61,697 nt of DNA from Nitrospirota bacterium (GTDB lineage: Bacteria; Nitrospirota; Thermodesulfovibrionia; Thermodesulfovibrionales; Dissulfurispiraceae). A model generated the notes under the pieces. That model saw nothing but the letters and a program-made list of their open reading frames with translations. It was not told the DNA's origin and did no database searches. Shown piece after piece: positions 6,725-61,472 of this stretch. How positions within the stretch are numbered: the stretch's first letter is position 1; each line of letters begins with the position of its first letter. A program made the translations under genes and the position numbers. The stretch covers positions 15,141 through 76,837 of the forward strand of contig JAJYXI010000016.1 in assembly GCA_021791055.1 (NCBI GenBank). The letters are read 5' to 3'.

Positions 6725-6850
6725 GGAAGTGAGCTGAAAGGAGAGCACGGCAATTACAATCTGTTAAGGTAATTCAACCAAGAAAAAACCTAACAGAAGA
6801 GGTAATTGCCATGCATGGGAAAGATTATAACAAGCAGATAGCGATTACTT
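6717..6850 (+). other. Probable insertion-sequence remnant between transposase copies
   Basis: Unrelated to the flanking repeats. It contains an imperfect dyad CTGTTAAGGT / ACCTAACAG, a GGCAATTAC/GTAATTGCC pair, and a ribosome site before ATG 6810 that opens MHGKDYNKQIA before running into the next unit. This resembles the first codons of a transposase gene cut off after 11 codons. The family is not certain. Confidence 0.4.
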
Positions 6851-7609
6851 TAATTAGGGACACATCCCATATTTCTTGACATTAAAATAGCTGTTCTGTA
6901 GAATTACTACATGCCAAGAATAGCAAGGGCCGTAGCAGTAGGATTCCCTCATCATGTAATCCAAAGGGGGAATAATAAAGAGAAAGTCTTTTTCGAAAAA
7001 GAAGACAGACAAAAATATCTGGAGTTGCTCAAAAAATACTCAGACAAATGGGAATGCCCGATCATTGCATATTGCCTTATGGGAAACCATGTTCATTTAC
7101 TTGTGAGACCTAAACGCGAGGAATCTCTTTATAAAATGATGCAGGGTCTAACTCTTTGTTACACCCAGCATATCAACAGGAAATATGAAAAAACAGGAAG
7201 ATTGTGGGAAAGCAGATATCATTCCTGTATAGTTGACAGAGAACATTATTTATGGGCTGTAGCAAGATATATTGAGCAAAATCCAAAGCGTGCAAAGATA
7301 GTGAAAAAAGAAGAGGAATATCCGTATTCAAGTGCAAGGGCTCATATTGAAGGCAGGAGAGACGACATCTTGGGCGAAAAGCTTTTTAACGATAATCAGA
7401 GGAAAGATTATATAGCATTTATCAGAGAGAGCATTACAGAAGAGGAGATACAACGATTAAAGTATTCCACGAGAACTGGAAGACCCTTTGGTAGAGAGGA
7501 GTTTATAAAGAGGATGGAAAAGAAGCTGAACAAAAGGTTTATACTACAGAGACCGGGCAGACCAAAAGGGCGAAAGAGTTAAATAAAATAGGGGATGTGT
7601 CCCTAATTA
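6851..7609 (+). mobile_element. RAYT (REP-associated tyrosine transposase) unit with inverted ends
   Basis: Perfect 18-bp inverted ends TAATTAGGGACACATCCC (6851-6868) and GGGATGTGTCCCTAATTA (7592-7609) enclose one transposase gene. Domesticated or mobile REP-type units of this kind are typical for the family. Confidence 0.8.
6911..7582 (+). CDS. REP-associated tyrosine transposase (IS200/Y1-like)
   Basis: A 223-residue Y1 transposase. The HUH motif is in NHVHLLVRP (residues about 61-69). The candidate catalytic Tyr is in the HYLWAVARYIEQNPKRAKI region, and SSARAHIEGRRDDIL follows, as in RAYTs. The N-terminus MPRIARAVAVGFPHHVIQRG is standard for the family. ATG 6911 lies just after an AT-rich leader with a TTGACA-like element (TTGACATTAAAATAGCT) and no clear Shine-Dalgarno site. 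Length is normal and the gene looks intact. These enzymes nick and join single-stranded DNA at REP-like hairpins. Many short hairpin repeats occur in this window, though no specific pairing is proven. Confidence 0.92.
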   Translation: MPRIARAVAVGFPHHVIQRGNNKEKVFFEKEDRQKYLELLKKYSDKWECPIIAYCLMGNHVHLLVRPKREESLYKMMQGLTLCYTQHINRKYEKTGRLWESRYHSCIVDREHYLWAVARYIEQNPKRAKIVKKEEEYPYSSARAHIEGRRDDILGEKLFNDNQRKDYIAFIRESITEEEIQRLKYSTRTGRPFGREEFIKRMEKKLNKRFILQRPGRPKGRKS

Positions 7610-7653
7610 TGCTAAATGCTGACGTGGACCTGACCCTTTTTCTTTCTTTTATT

Positions 7654-8715
7654 TTACAATTCTTTCAGTCTCTCTGCCTGATAATGGGTGATGAGGGCAT
7701 CGATAATCTCGTCCATGGCTCCTTCTAAGACCTGCTCCAGTTTATGAAGGGTAAGTCCTATCCTGTGATCTGATACCCTGTTCTGCGGATAGTTGTATGT
7801 CCTTATCCTCTCGCTCCTGTCTCCGGTGCCTACCTGCGTCTTCCTTTCCATGGCGCGCTCTTTCTGCTTTTTCTCGGTCTCCATTTCAAGGAGGCGGGAA
7901 CGCAATACCTTCATAGCCTTTTCCCTATTCTTAAGCTGTGAGCGCTCGTCCTGACACTGCACAACGAGTCCGGTAGGGATATGCGTAATCCTCACCGCCG
8001 AATATGTCGTGTTAACGCTCTGTCCACCTGCGCCTGAAGAGCAAAAGGTGTCTACTCTCAAATCCTTTTCTTCTATCTTTATATCAAGTTCCTCTGCTTC
8101 AGGCAAAACAGCAATGGTAGCAGCGGATGTATGAATCCTGCCCGATGCCTCTGTAACAGGAACCCTCTGCACTCTGTGCACGCCGCTTTCGTATTTCAGC
8201 CTGCTGTATGCGCCCTTTCCTGTAATATTTGCTATTACCTCTTTTAATCCGCCAAGCCCCGTTGGACTTGAGTCTATAACCTCTATCTTCCATCTCCTTG
8301 ATTCTGCATATTTTGAATACATCCTGAAGAGGCTTGCACCAAAAAGGGATGCCTCCTCTCCTCCTGTGCCTGCCCTTATTTCGAGGATAACGTTCCTTTC
8401 ATCCCTCGGGTCTTTTGGAAGGAGCATTATCTTGAGCTCGTCTTCTACAAGAGGTTTTCTCTTCTTAAGCTCTTCCATCTCCTCCTGTGCCAGTTCCCTC
8501 AGGTCACCGTCTCCGCCTTTCAGTATCTCCTCTGCATCTTCAAGGTCTGCCAACAGCTTCTTATATTCTTTAATCTTCTCCACAATGGGCATAAGCTCTG
8601 CCTGTTCCTTGGAATACTTCTGATATGCCTGGGCATTGGACAACACCTCTGGATTGGTGAGAGCATTGGTTATCTCATCGTATTTCTCTTCTATAACTAA
8701 AAGTTTATCTATCAT
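7654..8715 (-). CDS. prfA: Peptide chain release factor 1
   Basis: A 353-residue class I release factor recognising UAA and UAG. The catalytic GGQ is in [18 protein letters not shown] (residues about 225-242), with the RF1 anticodon-like region around [22 protein letters not shown] and the stop-recognition loop. Length is standard. It follows the DUF1385 gene by 17 bases on the same strand, in the conserved order rpmE-DUF1385-prfA. The usual next gene, prmC, is displaced 3.4 kb by the integron and RAYT unit. Its glutamine should be the target of PrmC. Confidence 0.97.
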
Positions 8716-47859: not shown

Positions 47860-48939
47860 ATGGCTACATTATTTGATTTATTAAAACTCATGATAGAGCA
47901 GGGCGCATCCGACCTGCATATAACAACAGGCAGTCCGCCGAGACTGCGCATAGCAGGAAGGCTTGTTCCGGTTGAAGGCAATCCCTCGCTGACACCCGAA
48001 GACACAAAGGAACTCTGCTACAGCATCCTCACAGATTCGCAGAAACACAAATTCGAAGAGCACAACGAACTCGACCTCTCATTCGGCGTAAAAGGGCTTA
48101 GCAGATTCAGGGCAAATATCTTTCTCCAAAGGGGAGCAGTGGCAGGGGCATTCAGGGCTATACCTTTTAACATCAAAACATTTCAGGAATTAGGACTGCC
48201 CGATATAATCGAAGACCTTACTAAAAAGCCCAACGGCCTTATACTCGTTACAGGCCCTACAGGCAGCGGAAAATCGACAACCCTATCGACAATGATAGAC
48301 AGGATAAATTCCGAAAGGGAGTCGCACATCGTAACAGTGGAAGATCCAATAGAGTTTCTGCACAGCCACAAAAAATGCCTTATAAACCAGAGAGAGGTGA
48401 ATTCCGATACATATTCTTTCAAGAATGCCCTCAAATACCTCCTGAGACAGGACCCGGATGTTGTATTAATAGGCGAGATGCGAGACCTCGAGACAATAGA
48501 ATCAGCCATAACAATAGCAGAGACAGGGCACCTGACCTTTGCAACACTTCATACAAATTCAGCAATCCAAACAATCAACAGGGTAATAGATGTCTTTCCG
48601 CCGCATCAGCAGGAACAGATAAGGACACAGTTATCCTTTGTGCTCGAGGGAATAATTTCACAACAATTACTCACAAGGCAGGATGGTCAGGGAAGGGTTC
48701 TTGCCCTCGAAATTCTTGTTCCAACGCCTGCCATAAGAAATCTCATAAGGGAAGACAAGCTCCACCAGATATACTCGATGATGCAGACAGGACAGGCGCG
48801 CTCGGGAATGCAGACCATGAATCAATCGCTCCATGAGCTTTATACAAAGGGTTTAATATCCTATGATGACGCAATCAATCACTCGCCGGTGCCTGAAGAG
48901 ATGAATCAGATGCTGAACAGGGGAGCAAGATTCAGATAA
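47860..48939 (+). CDS. pilT: Type IV pilus retraction ATPase PilT
   Basis: 359 residues. LIEQGASDLHITTGSPPRLR at the N-terminus, Walker A VTGPTGSGKSTTLST, Walker B VVLIGEMRDLETIESA, HTNSAIQTINRVIDVFPPHQ, and the PilT-specific AIRNLIREDKLHQIYSMMQT motif needed for retraction. It drives pilus disassembly. Its 3' end overlaps convergent fdhD by eight bases. Confidence 0.96.
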   Translation: MATLFDLLKLMIEQGASDLHITTGSPPRLRIAGRLVPVEGNPSLTPEDTKELCYSILTDSQKHKFEEHNELDLSFGVKGLSRFRANIFLQRGAVAGAFRAIPFNIKTFQELGLPDIIEDLTKKPNGLILVTGPTGSGKSTTLSTMIDRINSERESHIVTVEDPIEFLHSHKKCLINQREVNSDTYSFKNALKYLLRQDPDVVLIGEMRDLETIESAITIAETGHLTFATLHTNSAIQTINRVIDVFPPHQQEQIRTQLSFVLEGIISQQLLTRQDGQGRVLALEILVPTPAIRNLIREDKLHQIYSMMQTGQARSGMQTMNQSLHELYTKGLISYDDAINHSPVPEEMNQMLNRGARFR

Positions 48940-49690
48940 TCCTCTGCGGATTTGTATAGACATTCAGTCTGTCTGCTCTTATAAAACCAACTACTGTTAC
49001 ACCGCTTTTTTCTGCAATGTCCACTGCGAGGCTTGTTGGAGATGTCCTGCTCGCAACCATGGGGATTCCCCACTTTGCACACTTTGAGACAATCTCTGAA
49101 GATAGCCTTCCGCTTGCGAGCATTATCTTTCCTTCGAATGGAATATTCTCAAGGATTGCATAGCCGACAACCTTATCAACTGCATTGTGCCTTCCGATAT
49201 CCTCTGCAAGGCAAAAGATTTCATTGCCGTTGCTGAGTCCTGCGCTATGAACACATCCTGTTATTTTATAAAGCTCGGACGCATTCTGGAATCTCCTGAA
49301 CAACTCTTTCAATGCAGACATCTTTATCTGAAACCGGTCATCTATTTTTTGTAAGGACAATCTCTTTGGAAATGTTATGCCGCCGATGCATCCTGATGTG
49401 ATGACAGCGCCATCGGTTGAGACCTCGCCTTCTGCAGGTATGTCCACCAGCACATCTTCCCCGTATTCTATGGACATCCTCTCTGCACACCATTTACCTT
49501 TGATAATATCCTCGGTCATGAACATGCCGACAACAAGCTCCCTTACCATAAGCGGCGTGCAGTAGAGGCTTAAAACCTCTTTGCCGTTCACGGAAACCTT
49601 CAGCCTCTTTTCAATAGCTATGAGGTCTTCCCTCTTTTCGAGAGAGTCGCTGGCGCTCTTATATATTTTTCTCTTTATGAAACCGTTCAT
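48932..49690 (-). CDS. fdhD: Formate dehydrogenase accessory sulfurtransferase FdhD
   Basis: 252 residues from ATG 49690 (AAGGATGT upstream). The family core is clear: SLYCTPLMVRELVVGMFMTE, ITSGCIGG loop, VHSAGLSNGNEIFCLAEDIG-RHNAVDKVVG, LASGRLSSEIVSKCAKWGIP and ASRTSPTSLAVDIAEKSGV. FdhD transfers sulfur from IscS-type desulfurases to the molybdenum cofactor of formate dehydrogenases. The usual CxxC loop has only one Cys here (SGCIGG). It overlaps the PAS-GAF-GAF gene by 32 bases. No catalytically competent formate dehydrogenase is encoded in this window. Confidence 0.93.
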   Translation of the reverse strand: MNGFIKRKIYKSASDSLEKREDLIAIEKRLKVSVNGKEVLSLYCTPLMVRELVVGMFMTEDIIKGKWCAERMSIEYGEDVLVDIPAEGEVSTDGAVITSGCIGGITFPKRLSLQKIDDRFQIKMSALKELFRRFQNASELYKITGCVHSAGLSNGNEIFCLAEDIGRHNAVDKVVGYAILENIPFEGKIMLASGRLSSEIVSKCAKWGIPMVASRTSPTSLAVDIAEKSGVTVVGFIRADRLNVYTNPQRII

Positions 49691-51242
49691 ACATCCTTGC
49701 ATTCTCGATTGCTGTGCCGCACACCTCTGCAAGGGATGCTGAGAATGCAATATCCTCCTCTGTGAAGAGGCGCGGCCTGTCAGTAAGGAGCCTCAAAACA
49801 CCTATTACCCTGTCCTTTGCAATTATAGGAAGGGTGAGTATGCTCTTTATCCCTTCCTCCATCGCCTCTTTCTGATAGTGCACTCTCTTGTCGGTGCTTA
49901 CATCGTATATGGCAACAGGCCTTGTCTGGAGAGCCTCCCTTACATTCTCTTCTGTATCAACCGGGCCTCTTCCAAGGTATTTTTCGCTCAGTCCGTATGC
50001 TGCAGCCAGTTCCAGCTTCTGTCCTGTGGTATCCAGCAATCTTATAGTAGCCGCCTTGAGATTCATTACCTCGGGCAATTTCTTGACTATCAGATTAAGC
50101 ACCTCGTTCAGTCTGAGGGTAGAGCTGACCGCCTTTGTCACCTCTTCAAAAACTCTTAGGTATTCTTTCGCACGGGATACGGTAGTCTCAAATGTCCTTG
50201 CATTTACTATAGCAATTGCTGCCTGCTCCGCTATCGCAGCCATAAATTTCAGGTCCTCATCTTTATACTTCACAGGCTCGGCAGTATACATCCTGAGAAC
50301 TCCTATGACCTCTTTCTTAAGCTTGACAGGGATGGACAATATACTCCTTATTCCTTCTTCCTCTGCTTCTTTGCGGTATTTTGCATCGGAATCCGAAGTG
50401 ATATCATAGATGGAAACCGCCTTGCCGTCCAGCGCATCCGCAACGCTTTTGTCGTATTCGACAGGTCCTTTATTGATATATTTTTCGCTCAATGCGTAAT
50501 AAGCGGCAACTTCCAATTTCTGCGTTTCCTTATTTACAAGCCTGAGCATACTTGCCTTCACATTCATCACCTTAACGGCATTTGTCACTATGAGATTCAA
50601 CACCTCGTTAAGGGAAAGGCTTGCGCTTATTGCCTTGCAGATATTCTGATAGCTTTCGAGATAAACCTTCTTTTCGAATATCTTGTCCGCGCAGTCAGGA
50701 CACATGCCGTGTGTGAATACGCCAAACCCTTCATCGGTAAGGTGTTTTTCTATCTGCTCCCAGGAGTCTTCGCTTATCTTTATCTTCTTGCACCATGCGC
50801 ATATGGGCACCAGCCTGTCCCTCCTCTGGCTCTTTATATGCGCCTCTACAGCAGAGAACACCCTCGAGTTATCCCTTAAAACAGAGACAGCGCCGATTAC
50901 CCTTCCTCCTCTGAAGACAGGAGAGGACTGCTCTTCTATATATATCTTCTCTTTGTTCTTATCCACAAGAAACAGGCTCTTGACCGCAGTTCTCGACGAC
51001 TGCAAGCACAGAATTGCTGGATACTCATAGGCGGGCAGTTTTGCTCCTGACTCGTCTTCGAATGAAAATATCTCATCGCAGCTCTTTCCCCTGACATCTT
51101 CTAAGGAGTAGCCTGTGAGGATTTCAGCGCCCTTGTTCCAGTACTCTATCTTCCTGTCACTGTTGATGTAATAGACGCCATCGGAGATATTATTGAGAAT
51201 ATCAAGATAAATATTTCGAAACATCTTATTATTATATATCAA
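49659..51242 (-). CDS. PAS-GAF-GAF sensor protein
   Basis: About 527 residues. PAS (about 8-130: ISDGVYYINSDRKIEYWNKG) is followed by a four-Cys segment (PICAWCKKIKISEDSWEQI, then HGMCPDCADKIF), then two GAF domains that are clear duplicates of each other (each SxxLxLNEVLNLIV, a VMN(L/V)KA strand and SEKYxxxGPV). There is no output domain. Start is TTG 51242 or ATG 51224; neither has a clear ribosome site. It lies between the NuoG-like gene and fdhD, so it may sense a ligand for the redox operon. Confidence 0.85.
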   Translation of the reverse strand: MIYNNKMFRNIYLDILNNISDGVYYINSDRKIEYWNKGAEILTGYSLEDVRGKSCDEIFSFEDESGAKLPAYEYPAILCLQSSRTAVKSLFLVDKNKEKIYIEEQSSPVFRGGRVIGAVSVLRDNSRVFSAVEAHIKSQRRDRLVPICAWCKKIKISEDSWEQIEKHLTDEGFGVFTHGMCPDCADKIFEKKVYLESYQNICKAISASLSLNEVLNLIVTNAVKVMNVKASMLRLVNKETQKLEVAAYYALSEKYINKGPVEYDKSVADALDGKAVSIYDITSDSDAKYRKEAEEEGIRSILSIPVKLKKEVIGVLRMYTAEPVKYKDEDLKFMAAIAEQAAIAIVNARTFETTVSRAKEYLRVFEEVTKAVSSTLRLNEVLNLIVKKLPEVMNLKAATIRLLDTTGQKLELAAAYGLSEKYLGRGPVDTEENVREALQTRPVAIYDVSTDKRVHYQKEAMEEGIKSILTLPIIAKDRVIGVLRLLTDRPRLFTEEDIAFSASLAEVCGTAIENARMYERFHKEKNI

Positions 51243-51377: not shown

Positions 51378-53858
51378 TTACGCCGCCTCTATCCTTACCG
51401 CTACAAGAGGCAAACCTCCGTTCAGGGAAGGATATGTCAGGGTATTAACCTTTGCATGGGCAAAGTGGGTCGGCGCAAATACCGTTCCTTCAGGAACCTC
51501 GTCAGACAACATTGCCTTCAGATATACCTCTCCCCTCTTTGATCTGACCTTCACAAATGCCTCGTCGTGTATATTGTGCTTTTTCGCATCCTTTGTATTT
51601 ATCTGGAGGTATGCATCAGACACGACAGAGTCGAGATTCTTGGAAAGGACAGACAGCGCTCCCGAGTGCTGAAGGATATTTGCGGTGACAAGGAACATCG
51701 GATATTCATCGCTTACGGTCTCCATCACCTCGTAAGAGACAGGATTAAATGATGGATGAATCTCCTTTGTCTCTTCCGCAACAACAATATCAGCAATCGA
51801 TGCCCTTATATCCGTGAGATCTTTCAATCCGAGGTCTTTGTTCATAACCCTCGCAAGATTCCTGAATATCTTCCAGTCAGGAATGGACTGGCCTGTCTCG
51901 AATAGGAGTTTCGCCATCTTCTGAATATTGCCGGTGGCTGCCATAAATGTCCCTTCCTTCTCAGACCAACTGCATGCAGGGAGAACAACATCGGCAAGCT
52001 TCGCTGTTTCGGTAAGGAATATATCCTGCACTATGAGCAGCTCCAGACCCTTCAGTGTCCTTTCCACCTTTGATACATCCTGAAATGTTACAAGCGGATT
52101 TTCGCCCATTATATAAAGGGCCTTTATATTGCCTGATTCATAGAACATCTGATAGACATCCTTCCCGTCTGAGAGCGGTCTGACGCCCACCATCCACATG
52201 CCGAGGGTGTTTGAAAACTCGGCAGGTATCTGGATCGTGTCAGGGCCGTCACCCATAAGCAGGGCAAGGTTCGCAGCAGCAAGGAGCGTATTCATGCTCT
52301 TTGTATTCTCAGACGCATTCGATGTCAGGGCTATAAGGCGTTTATTAGAAGAGGCATACGACTTCGCAAGACTTATAACCTCATCCTCGGGTATGCCTGC
52401 AATCTTGGATACTGCTGATGTAGTAAACTCTTTCAGCATGCCGGCAAGGGCATCAAAATTAGGTATGGCAGAAGCCTTGCCTTTGTCGTACAGTCCTTCG
52501 TCTATAATGACCTTCATTATGCCGTTTAAAAGCGCAGTGCCCGAGCCGGGTTTTATCCTCAGCCACTTTGTGCTGTTTCTCGCAAGCTTTGTCTCCTTTG
52601 TGTCCGCAACTACAAGATTTGCGCCGTCATTTCTTGCCTTGATGAAATTCAGTCCCCATACAGGGAGGGTTGATGTGATGTCTGATTCCACCACAAGCAT
52701 AAAATCAGCATCAAGAGGCGACTTCCACTTTATAGGCATTGCGTCTGCGCCGAATGCCTTTTGCAGTGCCTTTTGCGCCTTTGCATAGCCGAATCTTGCT
52801 GCAGAATCTATATTGTCTGTTCCAATAACATCCCTCATAAACTTCTGGAGCATATAGTTGTCTTCCATCGTGCACCTCTGCGAACCTATGGCGCCGATAG
52901 CCGATGTCCCGTGCTGCTCCTTTACGGATTCGAGCCTCTTGGCAACATACTCAAGCGCCTCTTCCCACGACACGGGCACCAGCATTCCATTTTTATCATT
53001 GGCCTTCTTAATCATAGGAGTCGTAAGCCTGTTTTCCGAATATATATAATCAAAGCCAAATCTGCCCTTGCTGCAGAGGTTTCCTTCATTTATCCCTATG
53101 TCCTCTTTTCCCCTTGCCCTGACTATCCTTCCTTCCCTGATGCTTACATTAGTCGTGCACCCGCAGCCGCAATAAGGACAGATGGTCTCGTACTCGTCCA
53201 TATACCAGACCCTTGAGCGGAATCTGTATGGCTTTGCGCCGAGGGCGCCGACAGGACAGGCATCTATACACTGCCCGCAGAATTCGCAGTTAAGCGTCTC
53301 TTCAAATGCAGGGCTCACCTTAGTTTTAAAGCCCCTTCCTATGAGATTTATTGCGCCAACACCTTGATGCTCGCCGCAAACCCTCACGCATTTGCCGCAC
53401 AAAATGCACCTGTTCGGATTTCTTTCGACGATGGGCGCATCAATCCTCTCCGGGTCGTGCTTTCTTTCAGCAAAAAACCTGCTCTGGGACGGCCCGTATT
53501 TAAAGGCAAGGTCCTGAAGGTCACACTCGCCTGCCTTGTCGCATACAGGACAGTCAAGGGGATGATGGACAAGGAGGAGCTCAAGGACAAGCCTTCTTGC
53601 CTTTGTCAGTTTCGGCGTCTCTGTCTGGACAGCCATTCCTTCTGCCACAGGCGTTGAACATGCGGCAAAGAGTCTCGGCTGGCCTTCAACCTCCACAATG
53701 CAAAGCCTGCACCCGCCGTAAGGCTTGAGTCTCTTGTCATAACACATATTAGGTATGTAAATGCCGTTCTTCTGTGCTGCCTGAAGAATAGTGGTTCCGG
53801 GTTCAACTTTTATATTTTTTCCGTTTATGGTAAGTTCTATTATTATCTCTTTTGGCAT
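51378..53858 (-). CDS. NuoG/formate-dehydrogenase-like subunit lacking catalytic residues
   Basis: 826 residues. N-terminal [2Fe-2S] domain (NMCYDKRLKPYGGCRLCIVE), NuoG-type His-Cys3 segment (HHPLDCPVCDKAGECDLQD), two [4Fe-4S] clusters (CILCGKCVRVC, CEFCGQCIDACP), a Mo-bis-MGD [4Fe-4S] (CPYCGCGCTTNV...GNLCSKGRFG), then the molybdopterin oxidoreductase fold. The position of catalytic Sec/Cys-His in formate dehydrogenase (RxUHxPS) reads AARFGYAKAQ, so Cys/Sec, His and Arg are all absent. It should act as an electron-transfer scaffold (NuoG-like) rather than a formate dehydrogenase. Co-transcribed with the NuoF-like gene, three bases apart; ribosome site AAGGAGG. Confidence 0.85.
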   Translation of the reverse strand: MPKEIIIELTINGKNIKVEPGTTILQAAQKNGIYIPNMCYDKRLKPYGGCRLCIVEVEGQPRLFAACSTPVAEGMAVQTETPKLTKARRLVLELLLVHHPLDCPVCDKAGECDLQDLAFKYGPSQSRFFAERKHDPERIDAPIVERNPNRCILCGKCVRVCGEHQGVGAINLIGRGFKTKVSPAFEETLNCEFCGQCIDACPVGALGAKPYRFRSRVWYMDEYETICPYCGCGCTTNVSIREGRIVRARGKEDIGINEGNLCSKGRFGFDYIYSENRLTTPMIKKANDKNGMLVPVSWEEALEYVAKRLESVKEQHGTSAIGAIGSQRCTMEDNYMLQKFMRDVIGTDNIDSAARFGYAKAQKALQKAFGADAMPIKWKSPLDADFMLVVESDITSTLPVWGLNFIKARNDGANLVVADTKETKLARNSTKWLRIKPGSGTALLNGIMKVIIDEGLYDKGKASAIPNFDALAGMLKEFTTSAVSKIAGIPEDEVISLAKSYASSNKRLIALTSNASENTKSMNTLLAAANLALLMGDGPDTIQIPAEFSNTLGMWMVGVRPLSDGKDVYQMFYESGNIKALYIMGENPLVTFQDVSKVERTLKGLELLIVQDIFLTETAKLADVVLPACSWSEKEGTFMAATGNIQKMAKLLFETGQSIPDWKIFRNLARVMNKDLGLKDLTDIRASIADIVVAEETKEIHPSFNPVSYEVMETVSDEYPMFLVTANILQHSGALSVLSKNLDSVVSDAYLQINTKDAKKHNIHDEAFVKVRSKRGEVYLKAMLSDEVPEGTVFAPTHFAHAKVNTLTYPSLNGGLPLVAVRIEAA

Positions 53859-53861
53859 CTC

Positions 53862-55748
53862 TTATTCCTCCTTCCCTGCAAGCGCTGCAATATGCATTTC
53901 TTTTAAAATTTCCTGTGCAGGCATATCCGCTTTGAGCACTTCCATGTAACTCCTCGGCCCTATCTTTACCGAGTCGAATTTACATGCCTCATAGCATGAA
54001 CGACATTGTATGCATAGAGACTGATCGATGCGGTGAGGCACCTTCTTTTCACCTGAGATTGCATTCTGCGGGCAGACCCTCTTACATGCGCCGCAGGCCT
54101 TGCATTTCTCCTCATCTATATAGAATGTGCATAGGTCTTTGCATACACCTGTCTTGCACCACTTTTCATTTATGTGGGATTCATACTCATCCCTGAAATA
54201 CTTTATTGTGGTCAGAACAGGATTCGGAGCTGTCTGCCCCAATCCGCAGAGGGATGTAGCTATTATATCCCTCGACATATCTCCAAGAAGCTCTATATCT
54301 CCCTCTTTTCCCCTGCCCTCTGTTATATTCGTCAACATATCCAGCATAACCGTCGTTCCGATCCTGCACGGCGGGCATTTGCCGCATGACTCTTCAGCAG
54401 TAAATTCGAGGAAGAACTTTGCAACACTGACCATGCAGTTGAGATCGTTCATAACGACCATACCGCCTGAACCAACAATAGCGCCTGTCCGGACAATATC
54501 TTCGTATGTCACAGGAGTATCGAGGAGATGCTCAGGGATGCATCCGCCTGACGGGCCTCCGAGCTGGACCGCCTTGAATTTCCTGCCCTTTGGCACACCG
54601 CCTCCGATGTCATAGATTATCTTCCTCAGAGGAATACCCATAGGCACTTCTATAAGACCAATGTTATTAATTGCACCGCTTAATGCAAAGACCTTTGTTC
54701 CTGTGGATTTCTCCGTACCGAGGCTCCTGTACCAGTCCGAGCCGTTTAATATTATCTGCGGGATGTTTGCATATGTCTCTACATTGTTAAGCACAGATGG
54801 CTTATCCCATAGCCCCTTCTGTGCAGGGAAGGGCGGCCTCGGTCTCGGCATTCCCCTTTTGCCCTCTATAGACCTCATCAAGGCTGTTTCCTCGCCGCAT
54901 ACAAACGCTCCTGCGCCCTGATATATCTCGATGTCGAGATTAAAGCCTGTGTCGAGGATATTTTCACCAAGAAGCCCGTTTTCCTTTGCCTGGTTTATGG
55001 CAAGCTGCAGTCTATGCACCGCGAGGGGATACTCTGCCCTGACATATATATATCCTTTATTTGCCCCTATCGCCTTTGCGCCTATTACCATGCCCTCAAG
55101 GACAACATGCGGGTCTGCCTCCATGATGCTTCTGTCCATAAATGCACCGGGGTCTCCTTCATCGCCGTTGCACAAGATATATTTCTGGTCTCCCTTGACC
55201 TTTGAGCAGAGCTCCCATTTCAAACCAGTAGGGAAGCCGGCGCCTCCCCTGCCTCTTAAACCTGATTTCTTCATCTCCTCTATTATCTGCTCAGAAGTCA
55301 TCTCTGTTAGGGCCTTTGCTGCAGCCTGATAACCGTCCCTCGCGATGTACTCCTCTATCTTTTCAGGGTCTACCAGTCCTTTGTTCCTTAATGCCCTGAG
55401 AACCTGAAGGCTGAAAAATGGAATATCCTTCATTAAAGGTATTGTCTGCTTCCTTGCAGGCTCTTTGTACATGAGCCTCTCAACAGGCCTTCCTTTAATG
55501 AAGTGCTCCTCTACAATAACAGGGATGTCTTTAACAGTAACCTTTTCATAAAAGATATCTTCCGGATAAACAGTCATAACAGGTCCCTGTGCACAGAACC
55601 CGTTACAACCTGTAAGGACGACATTTATTTCGTTTTCGAGCTCCCTGTTTTTGAGTTCTTCGTCAAGGGCATTCTTTATCTTTAGACTGCCTCCGGCTAT
55701 GCAACCGGTGCCTCCGCATAACATAACACTCGCACGATACCTTTCCAT
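53862..55748 (-). CDS. NuoF/HydB-like NAD(P)H-binding flavoprotein
   Basis: 628 residues. N-terminal thioredoxin-like [2Fe-2S] domain (CGGTGCIAGG, GCNGFCAQGP), NuoF core with FMN/NADH sites (GRGGAGFPTGLKWELC, NGDEGDPGAFMDRSIMEADP, YIYVRAEYPLAVHRLQ), [4Fe-4S] of NuoF (ESCGKCPPCRIG), and C-terminal two-cluster ferredoxin (CKACGACKRVCP, CIQCRSCYEACK). This domain order is that of HydB/BfuB proteins of soluble electron-bifurcating enzymes. It accepts or donates electrons at NAD(H). AGGAGGAG ribosome site; the 2Fe-2S gene ends eight bases upstream. Confidence 0.92.
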   Translation of the reverse strand: MERYRASVMLCGGTGCIAGGSLKIKNALDEELKNRELENEINVVLTGCNGFCAQGPVMTVYPEDIFYEKVTVKDIPVIVEEHFIKGRPVERLMYKEPARKQTIPLMKDIPFFSLQVLRALRNKGLVDPEKIEEYIARDGYQAAAKALTEMTSEQIIEEMKKSGLRGRGGAGFPTGLKWELCSKVKGDQKYILCNGDEGDPGAFMDRSIMEADPHVVLEGMVIGAKAIGANKGYIYVRAEYPLAVHRLQLAINQAKENGLLGENILDTGFNLDIEIYQGAGAFVCGEETALMRSIEGKRGMPRPRPPFPAQKGLWDKPSVLNNVETYANIPQIILNGSDWYRSLGTEKSTGTKVFALSGAINNIGLIEVPMGIPLRKIIYDIGGGVPKGRKFKAVQLGGPSGGCIPEHLLDTPVTYEDIVRTGAIVGSGGMVVMNDLNCMVSVAKFFLEFTAEESCGKCPPCRIGTTVMLDMLTNITEGRGKEGDIELLGDMSRDIIATSLCGLGQTAPNPVLTTIKYFRDEYESHINEKWCKTGVCKDLCTFYIDEEKCKACGACKRVCPQNAISGEKKVPHRIDQSLCIQCRSCYEACKFDSVKIGPRSYMEVLKADMPAQEILKEMHIAALAGKEE

Positions 55749-55756
55749 CTCTCCTC

Positions 55757-56140
55757 CTAATATGCTGTTTCGCTGCCTATAACAAGGGCATAATCTTCGA
55801 CTGCCTTGCCATCCATTACATGCTCTTTAAAAATCTTCCTCATCTTCTCTTCATTGAGATAGACATATTTAACAGGAGCTTCGTTTATTATCTCGACAGT
55901 TGCCATAGGCTCCTTGCTGCAAAGCCCTGCGCATCCCGATGTCGTAACAATCACATCCTTTACATTGCTCTTGTTTATCTCATCAAGAATGGCCTCCATT
56001 ACCTTTCTTGCGCCGGCAGCAATCCCGCATGTGCCCATGTGTACCGTTATCTTTGCCCTGTAGCCGCCCTCCCTTAATGTGAGGGATGCCTTATAATCTT
56101 CCTTTATCTTTTTTAAATCATCCACTGTTAACCTGGGCAT
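55757..56140 (-). CDS. Thioredoxin-fold [2Fe-2S] ferredoxin-like protein
   Basis: 127 residues, a NuoE/HydB-N-like thioredoxin fold: VHMGTCGIAAGARKVMEAIL, TTSGCAGLCSKEPMATVEI. Three Cys are visible where four ligate the cluster in related proteins (the first is absent in MGTCG), as in many small homologues next to bifurcating enzymes. Probably an electron carrier or structural subunit of the complex. ATG 56140 follows AGGAGGAAG; 17 bases after the receiver-NuoE gene. Confidence 0.85.
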   Translation of the reverse strand: MPRLTVDDLKKIKEDYKASLTLREGGYRAKITVHMGTCGIAAGARKVMEAILDEINKSNVKDVIVTTSGCAGLCSKEPMATVEIINEAPVKYVYLNEEKMRKIFKEHVMDGKAVEDYALVIGSETAY

Positions 56141-56157: not shown

Positions 56158-57018
56158 TTATTCGTATTCCTTCAACAAATCCAGTGTCTTGACCGGATTG
56201 ATAGAACCGTGGACATCCTTATTCACAACAACAACAGGCGCAAGTCCGCATGCGCCGAGACATCTAACGGTTTCGAGGGAGAATTTTTTGTCTGTTGTTA
56301 TGCCTCCTACATCCACCTTAAGTCCGTCGCTGAATTTTTTAACTATCTCTTCCGCACCCTTGACATAACAGGCTGTACCGAGACATACCCTTATATTATG
56401 CTTGCCTTTGGGCTTCATTGTGAAGAAGGAATAAAAAGAGACAACCCCATGAACCTCGCTGACAGGTATCTTCAGGCCTTTGGATATATGTCTCTGAACA
56501 ACGGGCGGCAGGTAGCCGACAAGCTCCTGCGCCTCCTGAAGCACCGGTATCAGGCTTCCGGGCTTATGTTTATATCTATTTATGATTTCATCTAATTTTG
56601 CAGCCACATCTTCGGTATATACCTCGACCTGAGGCTCCGGCACAACGCCTTTCTTCTTCAATTCAACAGCGTTGTTCGTTACCTCAAGCAGATGGGTGGG
56701 CGAGAACGGTTTGGGGAGGTAATCTATTATCCTCAAGCTCAAAGCCTCTTTTATGCTTTCCTGCGACGGGTAGCCCGTTATGACAACTATATTTATGTCA
56801 GGATTCTTTGCCCTCACCTGTCTCATGAATTCTATGCCGTCCATCTCCGGCATCTTAATATCGGTAATTATAAGGTCGTACAGGCTCTTATCGAGCAAAG
56901 ACAGGGCGTCTTTTGCAGATGTTGCTGTATCAACCCCGTATCCCTCAGGAGACAATATCCTCTCGCAGCTCCTCAGGACAATCTGTTCATCGTCAACCAC
57001 AAGAATATTCCCCTTCAT
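56158..57018 (-). CDS. Receiver-NuoE fusion protein
   Basis: 286 residues. Residues 1-125 are a receiver domain (VDDEQIVLRSCERIL, phospho-acceptor in LIITDIKMPEMDG, VVITGYPS, LPKPFSP). Residues about 135-286 are a NuoE/HydC-type [2Fe-2S] subunit (GSLIPVLQEAQELVGYLPP, VVSFYSFFTMKPKGKHNIRV, CLGTACYVKGA, RCLGACGLAPVV), with all four Cys. This puts phosphorylation control directly on the diaphorase subunit. ATG 57018 follows GGAGG, 12 bases after the receiver-GcvH gene. Confidence 0.9.
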   Translation of the reverse strand: MKGNILVVDDEQIVLRSCERILSPEGYGVDTATSAKDALSLLDKSLYDLIITDIKMPEMDGIEFMRQVRAKNPDINIVVITGYPSQESIKEALSLRIIDYLPKPFSPTHLLEVTNNAVELKKKGVVPEPQVEVYTEDVAAKLDEIINRYKHKPGSLIPVLQEAQELVGYLPPVVQRHISKGLKIPVSEVHGVVSFYSFFTMKPKGKHNIRVCLGTACYVKGAEEIVKKFSDGLKVDVGGITTDKKFSLETVRCLGACGLAPVVVVNKDVHGSINPVKTLDLLKEYE

Positions 57019-57030
57019 CCGTAATCCTCC

Positions 57031-57795
57031 TTATGCATTTATTGAATTTATCTTAACAAGCCATAAAAACCAGCCTTCAGAAAGATGGTCTTTTAACAGG
57101 GAACATATAGCATCATTGGCATGCCCATTAACCTCTTTCACAACTCCTGTCATCGGAGACTTTATGTCATAAATATTCCCGTCGCCTGAGAGCAGTCTTG
57201 CAAAAGGCTCTCCTGCAACAACAGCCTTTATATCCCTCAGCATGTCCACATAAAGAAGCTGGCCGCTGACAAGAAAGTGCCTCACATCAACGCCTATCTC
57301 CCACGCACCGTCTTTCATAGGCCGCGCCCATGTCCCATCTTTGTAATAAACAGTAAGGTTATCCATCGCCGATGCAGGGACGACATAATCCCTGAACTGG
57401 TCAATATATGCCTTTCTCAGTATCCAGCCCCTTTTATCAAAGACCTTTTTAGCAACATTCATCATAAAGTCAGGCGTAAAAGGCTTTTCAAGGTACTCAA
57501 AGGCGCCAAGCCTTATGGATTCCTTTGCATCCTCGAGGGAAGGATAGCCCGTAACAACAACAACATCCGCCTTTGGCTGTATCGTCTTTGTCTCCTGCAC
57601 GACCTTAAGGCCGTACACATCGGGAAGCCTGATGTCGGTTATAACCAGATCAAACTCCTCCTTTGAGACCTTCTCAATTGCACCTTCTCCATCTTCCACA
57701 GTAAATACCGTGAATCCCTCTGCGCCCAGTATCCTCTTACAGCTAAGGCATATCACAGGGTCATCATCAACAACCAATATCCGCTGCTTCTCCAT
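57031..57795 (-). CDS. Receiver-GcvH-like fusion protein
   Basis: 254 residues from ATG 57795 (GGAAGGGGGAAATT upstream); the frame is open further upstream but the sequence there covers the promoter. Receiver at 1-125 (VVDDDPVICLSCKRIL, LVITDIRLPDVYG, YLEKPFTPD). The C-terminal part (about 140-250) resembles a glycine-cleavage H/biotinyl-lipoyl fold (DGAWEIGVDVRHFLVSGQLL, IYDIKSPMTGVVKEVNGHA), but the lipoyl-lysine position is not lysine (GNIYDIKSP instead of a VKAxSDIYSP pattern). First gene of the redox operon, so possibly its regulator or an assembly or docking factor. Confidence 0.82.
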   Translation of the reverse strand: MEKQRILVVDDDPVICLSCKRILGAEGFTVFTVEDGEGAIEKVSKEEFDLVITDIRLPDVYGLKVVQETKTIQPKADVVVVTGYPSLEDAKESIRLGAFEYLEKPFTPDFMMNVAKKVFDKRGWILRKAYIDQFRDYVVPASAMDNLTVYYKDGTWARPMKDGAWEIGVDVRHFLVSGQLLYVDMLRDIKAVVAGEPFARLLSGDGNIYDIKSPMTGVVKEVNGHANDAICSLLKDHLSEGWFLWLVKINSINA

Positions 57796-57827: not shown

Positions 57828-57844
57828 GTGCAATATCGGTGCCA
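57828..57844 (-). promoter_or_regulatory. Sigma-54 (-24/-12) promoter of the receiver-NuoEFG operon
   Basis: On the minus strand TGGCAC-N5-TTGCAC, an exact match to the -24/-12 consensus. It lies 33 bases upstream of the ATG at 57795, giving a short leader with a ribosome site. Such promoters need an AAA+ activator; none is encoded in this window. Confidence 0.85.
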
Positions 57845-58099
57845 GAAGCAAAAGTTAGAACCAGCAATATTTTACACCTAAAGACATAAAAAAGTGTATA
57901 TTTTTTTAATACAGCATTTGACACCAGCCTTTAATCGGGAAACAGCATGAAAACCTTGAAAATGAGCCATTAATCGCTGGAGACAATAAACTGTATAATT
58001 TTTCAAGACAGTATATACAGAGTTCCAGCAACAGAAAAAAATAGGGAATCGGATAAGATGGATGTAATAAAAAGGCTGTCGAGACATTTCGAAGTCTGA

Positions 58100-59750: not shown

Positions 59751-59779
59751 TTGCTATATTTTCTGATTTCTGATATTCT
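59751..59779 (+). promoter_or_regulatory. Promoter of the AbrB/PIN toxin-antitoxin pair
   Basis: TTGCTA (59751-59756) and TATTCT (59774-59779), spacer 17. The region 59764-59790 is rich in TTTCTGA/GAAAT-like dyads, a plausible autoregulatory operator for the AbrB-type antitoxin. Confidence 0.5.
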
Positions 59780-59810
59780 GAAATTAGAAAACCATTTTAG
59801 GAGGTATAAC

Positions 59811-60098
59811 ATGCAGGCATCCAGAGTCTCAGTTGCAGAGATAAAATCAAGGGGGCAGTTGACAATCCCTAAAAAAATCCGTGAAAAGGGCCATATAGAA
59901 GAAGGGCAGGTTGTCTCCATAATCCCTGTTGGAGATTCTATTATCATAACACCGAAAAGGCTTGAACTCGACGAAGCAAGAAGGCAGATGAAAAAGCTGC
60001 TTAAGGCTTCCGGCCTTTCAGTTGAAGATCTGCTGTCAGGACTTAAAGAGGAAAGAGAAACTTTATATAAGGAAACTTATGGCAAAAAAAGAGGTTAG
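59811..60098 (+). CDS. AbrB/MazE-type antitoxin
   Basis: 95 residues from ATG 59811 (TAGGAGGTATAAC upstream). An N-terminal swapped-hairpin DNA-binding domain (VAEIKSRGQLTIPKKIREKG, VVSIIPVGDSIIITPKR) is followed by a helical, charged tail that should wrap the toxin. It overlaps the PIN gene by 20 bases. Antitoxin of a VapBC-like pair. Confidence 0.88.
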   Translation: MQASRVSVAEIKSRGQLTIPKKIREKGHIEEGQVVSIIPVGDSIIITPKRLELDEARRQMKKLLKASGLSVEDLLSGLKEERETLYKETYGKKRG

Positions 60099-60546
60099 GA
60101 TTTTTCTTGACTCAAATGTCATACTCTCCGGACTCATTTCCGAGACAGGCTCACCCCGCATCATCCTTGACATTATTACACTCAAGCTTCCCATGCTTCA
60201 TGCCTTAACAGGCAGATATAACATTATAGAAATCGAGAGAAACCTGAAAAAGAAAATGCCCGCGGCCATTCCCGTGTATAAAGAGTATCTCCCCAAGCTC
60301 AATCTCGAAATTATTCCTATGCCCTCCGCTACAATGATAAAAAATCTCTCAGGGCATACTTCTGATAAGGATGTTCCTGTCCTTGCTTCCGCACTTGCAG
60401 GAAAAGCAGATTTCCTTGTCACCGGTGATAAAAAAGACTTTGCAAAACTCCGCATGAAAAGCGGTTATCCGTTCAAAATCGTAAGTCCCTCAGAATTTCT
60501 TGAAGTAATCCTGCCTGAAATATTTAAAACGATAGAGGCCGATTAA
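60079..60546 (+). CDS. PIN-domain ribonuclease toxin
   Basis: 155 residues from ATG 60079 (AAGGAAACTT upstream). The PIN acidic residues are seen in VRIFLDSNVILSGLI, IEIERNLKK, GHTSDKDVPVLASALAG and DFLVTGDKKDFAKL. Belongs to the 'toxin component, PIN family' group (COG1569-like). Predicted Mg-dependent endoribonuclease neutralised by the AbrB-type partner. Confidence 0.88.
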   Translation: MAKKEVRIFLDSNVILSGLISETGSPRIILDIITLKLPMLHALTGRYNIIEIERNLKKKMPAAIPVYKEYLPKLNLEIIPMPSATMIKNLSGHTSDKDVPVLASALAGKADFLVTGDKKDFAKLRMKSGYPFKIVSPSEFLEVILPEIFKTIEAD

Positions 60547-60920: not shown

Positions 60921-61169
60921 ATGCCGACAGCCTTAAAGAACGAAGGCGAACACATAAAAGTTAAACAATATCTAACAGATAAAAAGGGTCATAAAGTGGC
61001 TGCTGTTATTGCTATGGATGAACTCGACAGATTAGAAATTCTTCTGGAGACCATTCCACTTACTGAAAAATGGCTTTATAAAAATAAAACTGCGCTCAAA
61101 AGTGTCCACAAAGGATTAAAAGAAGCCGCTCATGGCAAGATTTCAAAACTAAATCTGAATGAGCTATAG
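60921..61169 (+). CDS. Antitoxin, Phd/RelB-like
   Basis: 82 residues. KVKQYLTDKKGHKVAAVIAM and DELDRLEILLETI resemble the first beta strands and helix of Phd/YefM-type antitoxins, followed by a charged C-terminal helix (LKEAAHGKISKLNLNEL). ATG 60921 after GGGAGGATAT. Nine bases before the RelE-like gene, so probably its antitoxin. Confidence 0.75.
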   Translation: MPTALKNEGEHIKVKQYLTDKKGHKVAAVIAMDELDRLEILLETIPLTEKWLYKNKTALKSVHKGLKEAAHGKISKLNLNEL

Positions 61170-61178
61170 GAACCAGCC

Positions 61179-61472
61179 TTGTTCGATATATTAATCACCG
61201 ATGAGGCAAGGGAGCAATTAAACAGACTCAAAGTCAATAAGGGACTTTCAAAAAGATACAAGGCAGTTAAGAAAACCTTACATCTCCTGTCTCAAAACCC
61301 GAGGCATCCCGGATTACAGACACATGAATTCACTTCGTTAAAAGGTCCAAAGGGTGAAAAAGTATTTGAGGCATATGCAGAGCAGTCCACCCATGCCGCG
61401 TATAGAATATTTTGGTATTACGGCCCCGGAAACAAAGAGATAACTATTATAGCCATTACACCCCATCCTTAA
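61179..61472 (+). CDS. RelE/ParE-like toxin
   Basis: 97 residues beginning with TTG at 61179. FDILITDEAREQLNRLKVNK, KTLHLLSQNPRHPGLQTHEF, VFEAYAEQSTHAAYRIFWYY and EITIIAITPHP follow the RelE/ParE fold pattern (helix hairpin, then four strands). Predicted mRNA interferase or gyrase poison; subfamily not clear. Its stop overlaps the DpnI-like remnant on the opposite strand. Confidence 0.75.
   Translation: MFDILITDEAREQLNRLKVNKGLSKRYKAVKKTLHLLSQNPRHPGLQTHEFTSLKGPKGEKVFEAYAEQSTHAAYRIFWYYGPGNKEITIIAITPHP

Follow-up and report, generated by a model that had tools for sequence, protein, structure and literature searches.

Electron-bifurcating enzymes of the Bfu family, such as NiFe-HydABCSL of Acetomicrobium mobile (PMC8880783, PMC9304861), are defined by a core of two subunits, BfuB and BfuC (PMC9304861). 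Between two states of electron transfer, the C-terminal domain of HydC moves by 24 degrees, a shift that has been proposed to act as a gate (PMC8880783). The paper describing the family makes no mention of a receiver on BfuC, and the terms ‘receiver’, ‘response regulator’ and ‘histidine kinase’ each occur 0 times in it (PMC9304861). A receiver that acts on an NADH-oxidizing complex by protein contact and not through DNA is found in Mycobacterium tuberculosis, where the orphan CheY-like response regulator Rv3143 is bound to complex I (Nuo) (PMC9274095). We describe here an operon for which such direct action is predicted. Rv3143 differs from it in being a separate protein without an assigned kinase, in its reported contact, NuoD, and in that complex I is non-bifurcating (PMC9274095); in our case, receiver and NuoE share one polypeptide, and the system itself encodes a predicted kinase. 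The Bfu complex and the two-component system are each of a known kind, and their combination is new. A literature search, which had most subscription journals outside its reach, returned no published description of a receiver-fused NuoE on a bifurcating core.

The window, i.e., the whole stretch of DNA analysed, comprises 61,697 nucleotides from a Nitrospirota bacterium. An open reading frame on the minus strand (56158..57018), starting with ATG, encodes a protein of 286 residues that Pfam, matches to solved structures and conservation identify as a BfuC/HydC-type subunit fused to a receiver (REC-NuoE). Response_reg matches residues 5–113 (E = 3.7e-30) and 2Fe-2S_thioredx matches residues 143–285 (E = 5.7e-50); both scores exceed the curated Pfam cut-offs by a wide margin. 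The receiver domain comprises residues 1–120 (56659..57018, minus strand) and contains the acidic pair D9/D10, the predicted phospho-acceptor D53 (codon at 56860..56862, minus strand), T81 and K103. It is followed by a variable linker, residues 121–140 (56599..56658, minus strand), which stands out by its column entropy (a mean of 2.69 bits over residues 119–140 versus 1.35 in the receiver and 1.06 in the NuoE part), and by the NuoE/HydC domain, residues 141–286 (56161..56598, minus strand). This C-terminal half covers positions 2–144 of the 145 positions of PF01257 and consists of a helical N-terminal part and a thioredoxin-like domain with the four [2Fe–2S] cysteines C212, C217, C253 and C257. 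Its top PDB matches are the HydC subunits of bifurcating hydrogenases (7t2r_C, E = 1.6e-42; 8a6t_C, E = 1.8e-41).

The AlphaFold2 model of REC-NuoE shows a canonical CheY-like receiver, the NuoE helices and the [2Fe–2S] domain. The receiver fold superimposes on solved receivers with Z-scores of up to 22.9 (VIA-align; best match 3crn_B); the matches listed for the whole model in a structural comparison with the PDB are receivers and are uninformative on the NuoE half. The pTM of the model is 0.49, and the relative orientation of the two halves is therefore undefined. The initial annotation, made from the DNA alone, had claimed an N-terminal receiver with an intact phospho-acceptor on a NuoE/HydC-type subunit, and both the Pfam matches and the receiver residues listed above bear this out.

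The operon has the order REC-GcvH, REC-NuoE, small 2Fe–2S protein, HydB-type NuoF and NuoG/FdhA-like subunit (A subunit). Adjacent genes are separated by 3–17 bases from REC-GcvH to the A subunit, the gene order is kept in relatives, and the fusion is the sole NuoE of its operon. The first gene (57031..57795, minus strand) encodes a REC-GcvH-like protein of 254 residues counted from the ATG at 57795, identified by Pfam (run on a longer reading frame from a GTG at 57924), homolog alignment and AlphaFold2. The lipoyl Lys of H-proteins is absent from this protein: the ESVKA region is missing, and there is no conserved Lys at this place in 66 homologs. REC-GcvH is strongly conserved, and its receiver is sister to that of REC-NuoE (support 97/88 in the receiver tree described below). 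The third gene (55757..56140, minus strand) encodes a small thioredoxin-like [2Fe–2S] protein of 127 residues, assigned by its conserved position and a weak match to PF01257 (E = 4.1e-4; 20.6 bits, under the curated cut-off of 24.8); the NCBIfam models for 2Fe–2S ferredoxins score far below their cut-off.

The fourth gene (53862..55748, minus strand) encodes a BfuB/HydB-type NuoF of 628 residues with an FMN/NADH domain, an N-terminal 2Fe–2S domain and a C-terminal 2x[4Fe–4S] domain. Pfam finds 51K, SLBB (under its own cut-off), NADH_4Fe-4S and the C-terminal 4Fe–4S and N-terminal 2Fe–2S domains. The protein aligns with 7t2r_B over residues 3–594 (E = 3.5e-252), and the ligands of the N-terminal, C-terminal and B2 clusters are aligned, including His525 of the B2 cluster. 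The operon thus resembles the Bfu enzymes in its full-length B and C subunits with aligned cluster ligands, and likewise in an A subunit with an N-terminal Fe–S set (PMC8880783, PMC9304861), here Fer2_4, NADH-G_4Fe-4S_3 and Fer4_Nqo3 by Pfam. It also shares neighbors (PHP, HATPase and the small 2Fe–2S protein) with its unfused relatives. Unlike in the Bfu enzymes, the A subunit has neither an H-cluster nor the catalytic Cys/Sec of formate dehydrogenase. By sequence, the operon encodes a Bfu (HydABC-like) electron-bifurcating core. The initial annotation spoke of a diaphorase subunit; the subunit set goes beyond a plain diaphorase and corresponds to a Bfu-type core with a NuoG/FdhA-like A subunit.

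The A subunit (51378..53858, minus strand) is a BfuA-like NuoG/FdhA protein of 826 residues with a molybdopterin-type domain. It resembles the alpha subunit of FdsABG and other NAD-dependent formate dehydrogenases (6tg9, 9wxb, 7vw6) over its full length, molybdopterin-type domains included, and it passes the NuoG cut-off and fails the formate dehydrogenase cut-off of NCBIfam. Whereas formate dehydrogenases have the motifs ARVCH and TRLCH, with Cys/Sec-His at the catalytic site, the window protein has ARFGY, with Gly-Tyr, and each of the 79 A subunits that are partners of fusions has Gly in place of the Cys/Sec. Since Cys/Sec-His is missing, the complex is probably not a formate dehydrogenase, and a canonical enzyme of this kind is ruled out despite the adjacent gene for FdhD, a formate dehydrogenase accessory sulfurtransferase (48932..49750, minus strand; Pfam, NCBIfam). 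The Gly of the fusion partners is usually followed by Tyr or Phe. In the locus maps, FdhD adjoins the operon in genomes of the window's family alone. A PAS-GAF-GAF protein (49659..51242, minus strand; Pfam) is encoded downstream of the operon, and its gene lies close to the fusion operon in some members of the same family and rarely elsewhere.

We also considered and rejected a respiratory complex I module, since in several relatives (among them L039, L071 and L206; NuoD of L039 identified by Pfam) a separate NuoD-E-F-G set is divergent from the fusion operon; no NuoD adjoins the operon of the window. Downstream genes were considered as candidates for a third-substrate subunit; those checked encode rhomboid, GroEL, carbonic anhydrase, TerC and UbiE-like methyltransferase proteins and include no conserved redox partner. 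Three loci (L266, L268 and L273) have two NuoF copies in tandem behind one REC-NuoE and, where the contig extends that far, a second NuoG/FdhA-like copy, so that a doubled complex is possible. At the far end of the window, two small adjacent gene pairs (59751–60546 and 60921–61472) resemble toxin–antitoxin modules, AbrB-like/PIN-like and RelBE-like, as judged by eye from the translations alone.

To see how widely the combination of REC and 2Fe-2S_thioredx occurs, we searched for it across genomes. Most of 40 relatives examined carry the fusion. Of the 396 Nitrospirota genomes sampled, 112 have it, every one of them in the window's class, and it spans more than a dozen families. This recurrence shows that it is neither an assembly nor a frame-shift artefact. 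In another Nitrospirota class (family f25), NuoE is found unfused only, with up to 61% identity. At an E-value of 1e-54, from which very divergent fusions could escape, there is no REC-NuoE fusion in 345 Desulfobacterota or 299 Bacillota genomes, nor, in a survey without a positive control, in 151 Chloroflexota genomes. The matches listed by a wider contig scan include two fusions that are clear and of full length; the records of both have Nitrospirae in their titles. A scan of viral sequences contained no REC-NuoE fusion, and none is among the matches listed by a plasmid search.

We read 88 fusions residue by residue. D53 is retained in 84 of the 87 that have a residue at this position, and K103 in 86 of 88; all 88 keep the four cysteines of NuoE. 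Loss of the Asp and Lys in homologs had been named at the outset as the observation that would speak against a regulatory receiver; both residues are kept in nearly all homologs.

Genes for a HisKA/HATPase kinase, a PHP protein, a small HATPase, a lone receiver and NtrC are situated near the operon in many relatives. They adjoin it in a complete genome of the same genus (G002, L053) and lie on a separate contig (C84, L047) in the window's own genome. A CxxCH motif is present in 26 of 28 sensor-bearing copies of the kinase. The kinase of the window's genus (L047, 9956–11161, on contig C84 of the own genome) is without the periplasmic CxxCH domain of its relatives, and its input signal must therefore differ.

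In a tree of 173 receivers, the bootstrap of which is not fully settled, the receivers of REC-NuoE, REC-GcvH, the lone receiver and NtrC form one clade with support 99/90. Forty-nine of 50 background receivers fall outside this clade, and the fiftieth (L284) branches within the clade of the fusions; one receiver counted as lone (L069) groups with the background. The L284 protein (6832–7680) joins a receiver from within the REC-NuoE clade to a domain that faintly matches HATPase_c_2 (E = 0.00097, below cut-off) and represents another output for this receiver lineage.

Helix α1 of receivers forms the kinase-docking face. Position 17 in this helix is Ser in 92–97% of the four receiver classes versus 18% of the background. 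The pair Ser-Cys at positions 17 and 18 occurs in 70/87 REC-NuoE, 63/66 REC-GcvH, 32/34 lone and 12/13 NtrC receivers, overall in 177/200 versus 1/50 in the background; the L284 receiver, which was counted among the background, has the pair. Position 17 is among those changed in the rewired interface mutant of RR468 (4ja2, by PDB title and residue range). The shared motif could also reflect duplication instead of one common kinase. A kinase match is found in 108 of 112 fusion genomes versus 16 of 284 others; part of this co-occurrence reflects shared ancestry within one class, which the Fisher test leaves out of account, and some of the metagenome-assembled genomes are incomplete. Based on gene order, phylogeny, the common docking motif and co-occurrence, we assign the kinase set to REC-NuoE. 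That the kinase, the lone receiver and NtrC belong to the same system as REC-NuoE is well supported by these comparisons of sequence and, taken jointly with the architecture, highly probable.

To locate a promoter for this system, we scanned the window for the sigma-54 consensus TGGCAC-N5-TTGC. The only perfect match, TGGCACCGATATTGC (57830..57844, minus strand), is a predicted promoter within 300 bases before REC-GcvH, just upstream of its ATG; it is followed by the ribosome-binding-like site AGGAAGGGGG and then by the ATG at 57795. Among the regions upstream of REC-GcvH in relatives, 37/65 score at least 8 out of 10, versus 24/441 controls, and 29/65 score at least 9, versus 5/441 controls. 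The genome encodes sigma-54. Scans for sigma-70 promoters and terminators were at the level of shuffled sequence. The promoter, its enrichment in relatives and the sigma-54 gene indicate that NtrC of the same system probably activates the REC-GcvH-led operon. The set has the HisKA kinase, the REC-AAA activator and the −24/−12 promoter of NtrC-type sigma-54 systems; unlike these, it includes three more sister receivers, and two of the three are joined to domains that do not bind DNA (NuoE and GcvH-like). The initial annotation had proposed that a histidine kinase switches the complex directly and not by transcription only. A transcriptional layer is predicted as well, from the perfect sigma-54 promoter match and an NtrC of the same system, and control is probably dual.

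We favor, at slightly better than an even chance, a reading in which REC-NuoE is the C subunit of a Bfu-type complex and, through its receiver, a local two-component network acts directly on the assembled enzyme. Several sister receivers would be phosphorylated by one sensor histidine kinase, which in relatives often carries a periplasmic CxxCH domain. Phospho-NtrC would switch on the operon from the sigma-54 promoter and so set the amount of enzyme, and phospho-REC-NuoE would set its state by altering the docking of the NuoE [2Fe–2S] domain against NuoF. The altered docking would gate the low-potential branch between NADH/FMN and ferredoxin; the receiver, attached to the other end of HydC, could bias the movement of the HydC C-terminal domain. 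REC-GcvH might serve as an accessory adaptor. From the sequences, we infer that the fused receiver is phosphorylated by the kinase of the locus and that the Bfu-type complex bifurcates electrons; phosphorylation is further predicted to change the electron flow of the complex. Direct control of electron flow is plausible, with a chance close to even. The specific version, in which bifurcation is gated by phosphorylation because the receiver state decides whether the NuoE [2Fe–2S] domain visits NuoF, while the same kinase sets the amount through sigma-54, is offered tentatively and falls somewhat short of an even chance.

Signals might also run in the opposite direction. REC-NuoE would then be a sink or source of phosphate, its dephosphorylation would depend on the redox state or the assembly of the complex, and this would tune the NtrC branch as a feedback on its own operon. 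The receiver is indeed located on a redox subunit, the sister receivers, alike in their docking motif, would be competitors for one kinase, and the sister NtrC with its sigma-54 promoter offers a transcriptional output for such feedback. However, covalent fusion to NuoE is needless for a sink, and the surface of the fused receiver points the other way. The usual output face of receivers is α4-β5-α5. Conservation of α1–α3 is alike in fused and lone receivers, whereas the fused receivers are more constrained in the β4-α4 loop (0.26 versus 0.66 bits), α4 (1.00 versus 1.59 bits) and β5 (0.49 versus 1.36 bits). This constraint on the α4-β5 side is as expected for signaling to an attached domain, and the fit to signaling from the receiver to NuoE is suggestive. 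We consider the reverse direction unlikely.

Also, the receiver could be a passive module for docking or dimerization that aids assembly or localization, with phosphorylation dispensable. Three fused receivers are degenerate (G016, L040; G187, L203; G189, L213). In the two of genus g14 (G016 and G187), D53 is replaced by Tyr or His and K103 by Ala or Ser; the receiver domain, NuoF, the A subunit and the operon are kept, and NuoE is still fused and intact, as a passive domain would allow. The receiver domain of this genus may be used without phosphate, or it may be decaying. Nevertheless, the retention of D53 and K103 in nearly all fusions across more than a dozen families argues against a passive role, and so does the coincidence of degenerate receivers with an absent or weak kinase, which is expected if these residues serve phosphorylation. 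Among the genomes with a degenerate receiver, G016 and G189 belong to the four fusion genomes without a kinase match, and in G187 the match to the kinase is the weakest of those reported; the overlap between kinase absence and degenerate receiver has a chance probability of about 0.003 when phylogeny is ignored. We regard a purely passive receiver as improbable.

Two orphan copies of REC-NuoE (L069, 9133–9990; L205, 9523–10449) are followed by a gene for a UbiE-like methyltransferase and have no adjoining NuoF or NuoG, and one genome (G298) has one orphan and one operon copy (L204). Such orphans would suit a separate regulator, with the NuoE-like domain as its redox-sensing output, in place of a stoichiometric subunit, but most loci have the fusion as the only NuoE of a NuoE-Fd-NuoF-A operon, the genes of the window operon are tightly spaced and the A-subunit gene is close downstream in 80 of 87 fusions, which makes this reading very improbable.

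To our knowledge, the control of electron-bifurcating enzymes after their synthesis is largely open. We know of no earlier redox complex with a response regulator as one of its core electron-transfer subunits, and REC-NuoE would be the first if the gating is true. In the nearest solved structure, the subunit equivalent to the receiver-bearing one moves during electron transfer. If phospho-gating is true, the coupling of ferredoxin and NAD(H) would be switched quickly, with the same kinase setting the amount of enzyme via sigma-54. The genomes with dead receivers provide natural control cases, and direct phospho-control of a core redox complex is testable by standard two-component assays. A metabolic enzyme would thereby be added to the known output repertoire of response regulators, and the cell may switch the enzyme directly as well as its genes.
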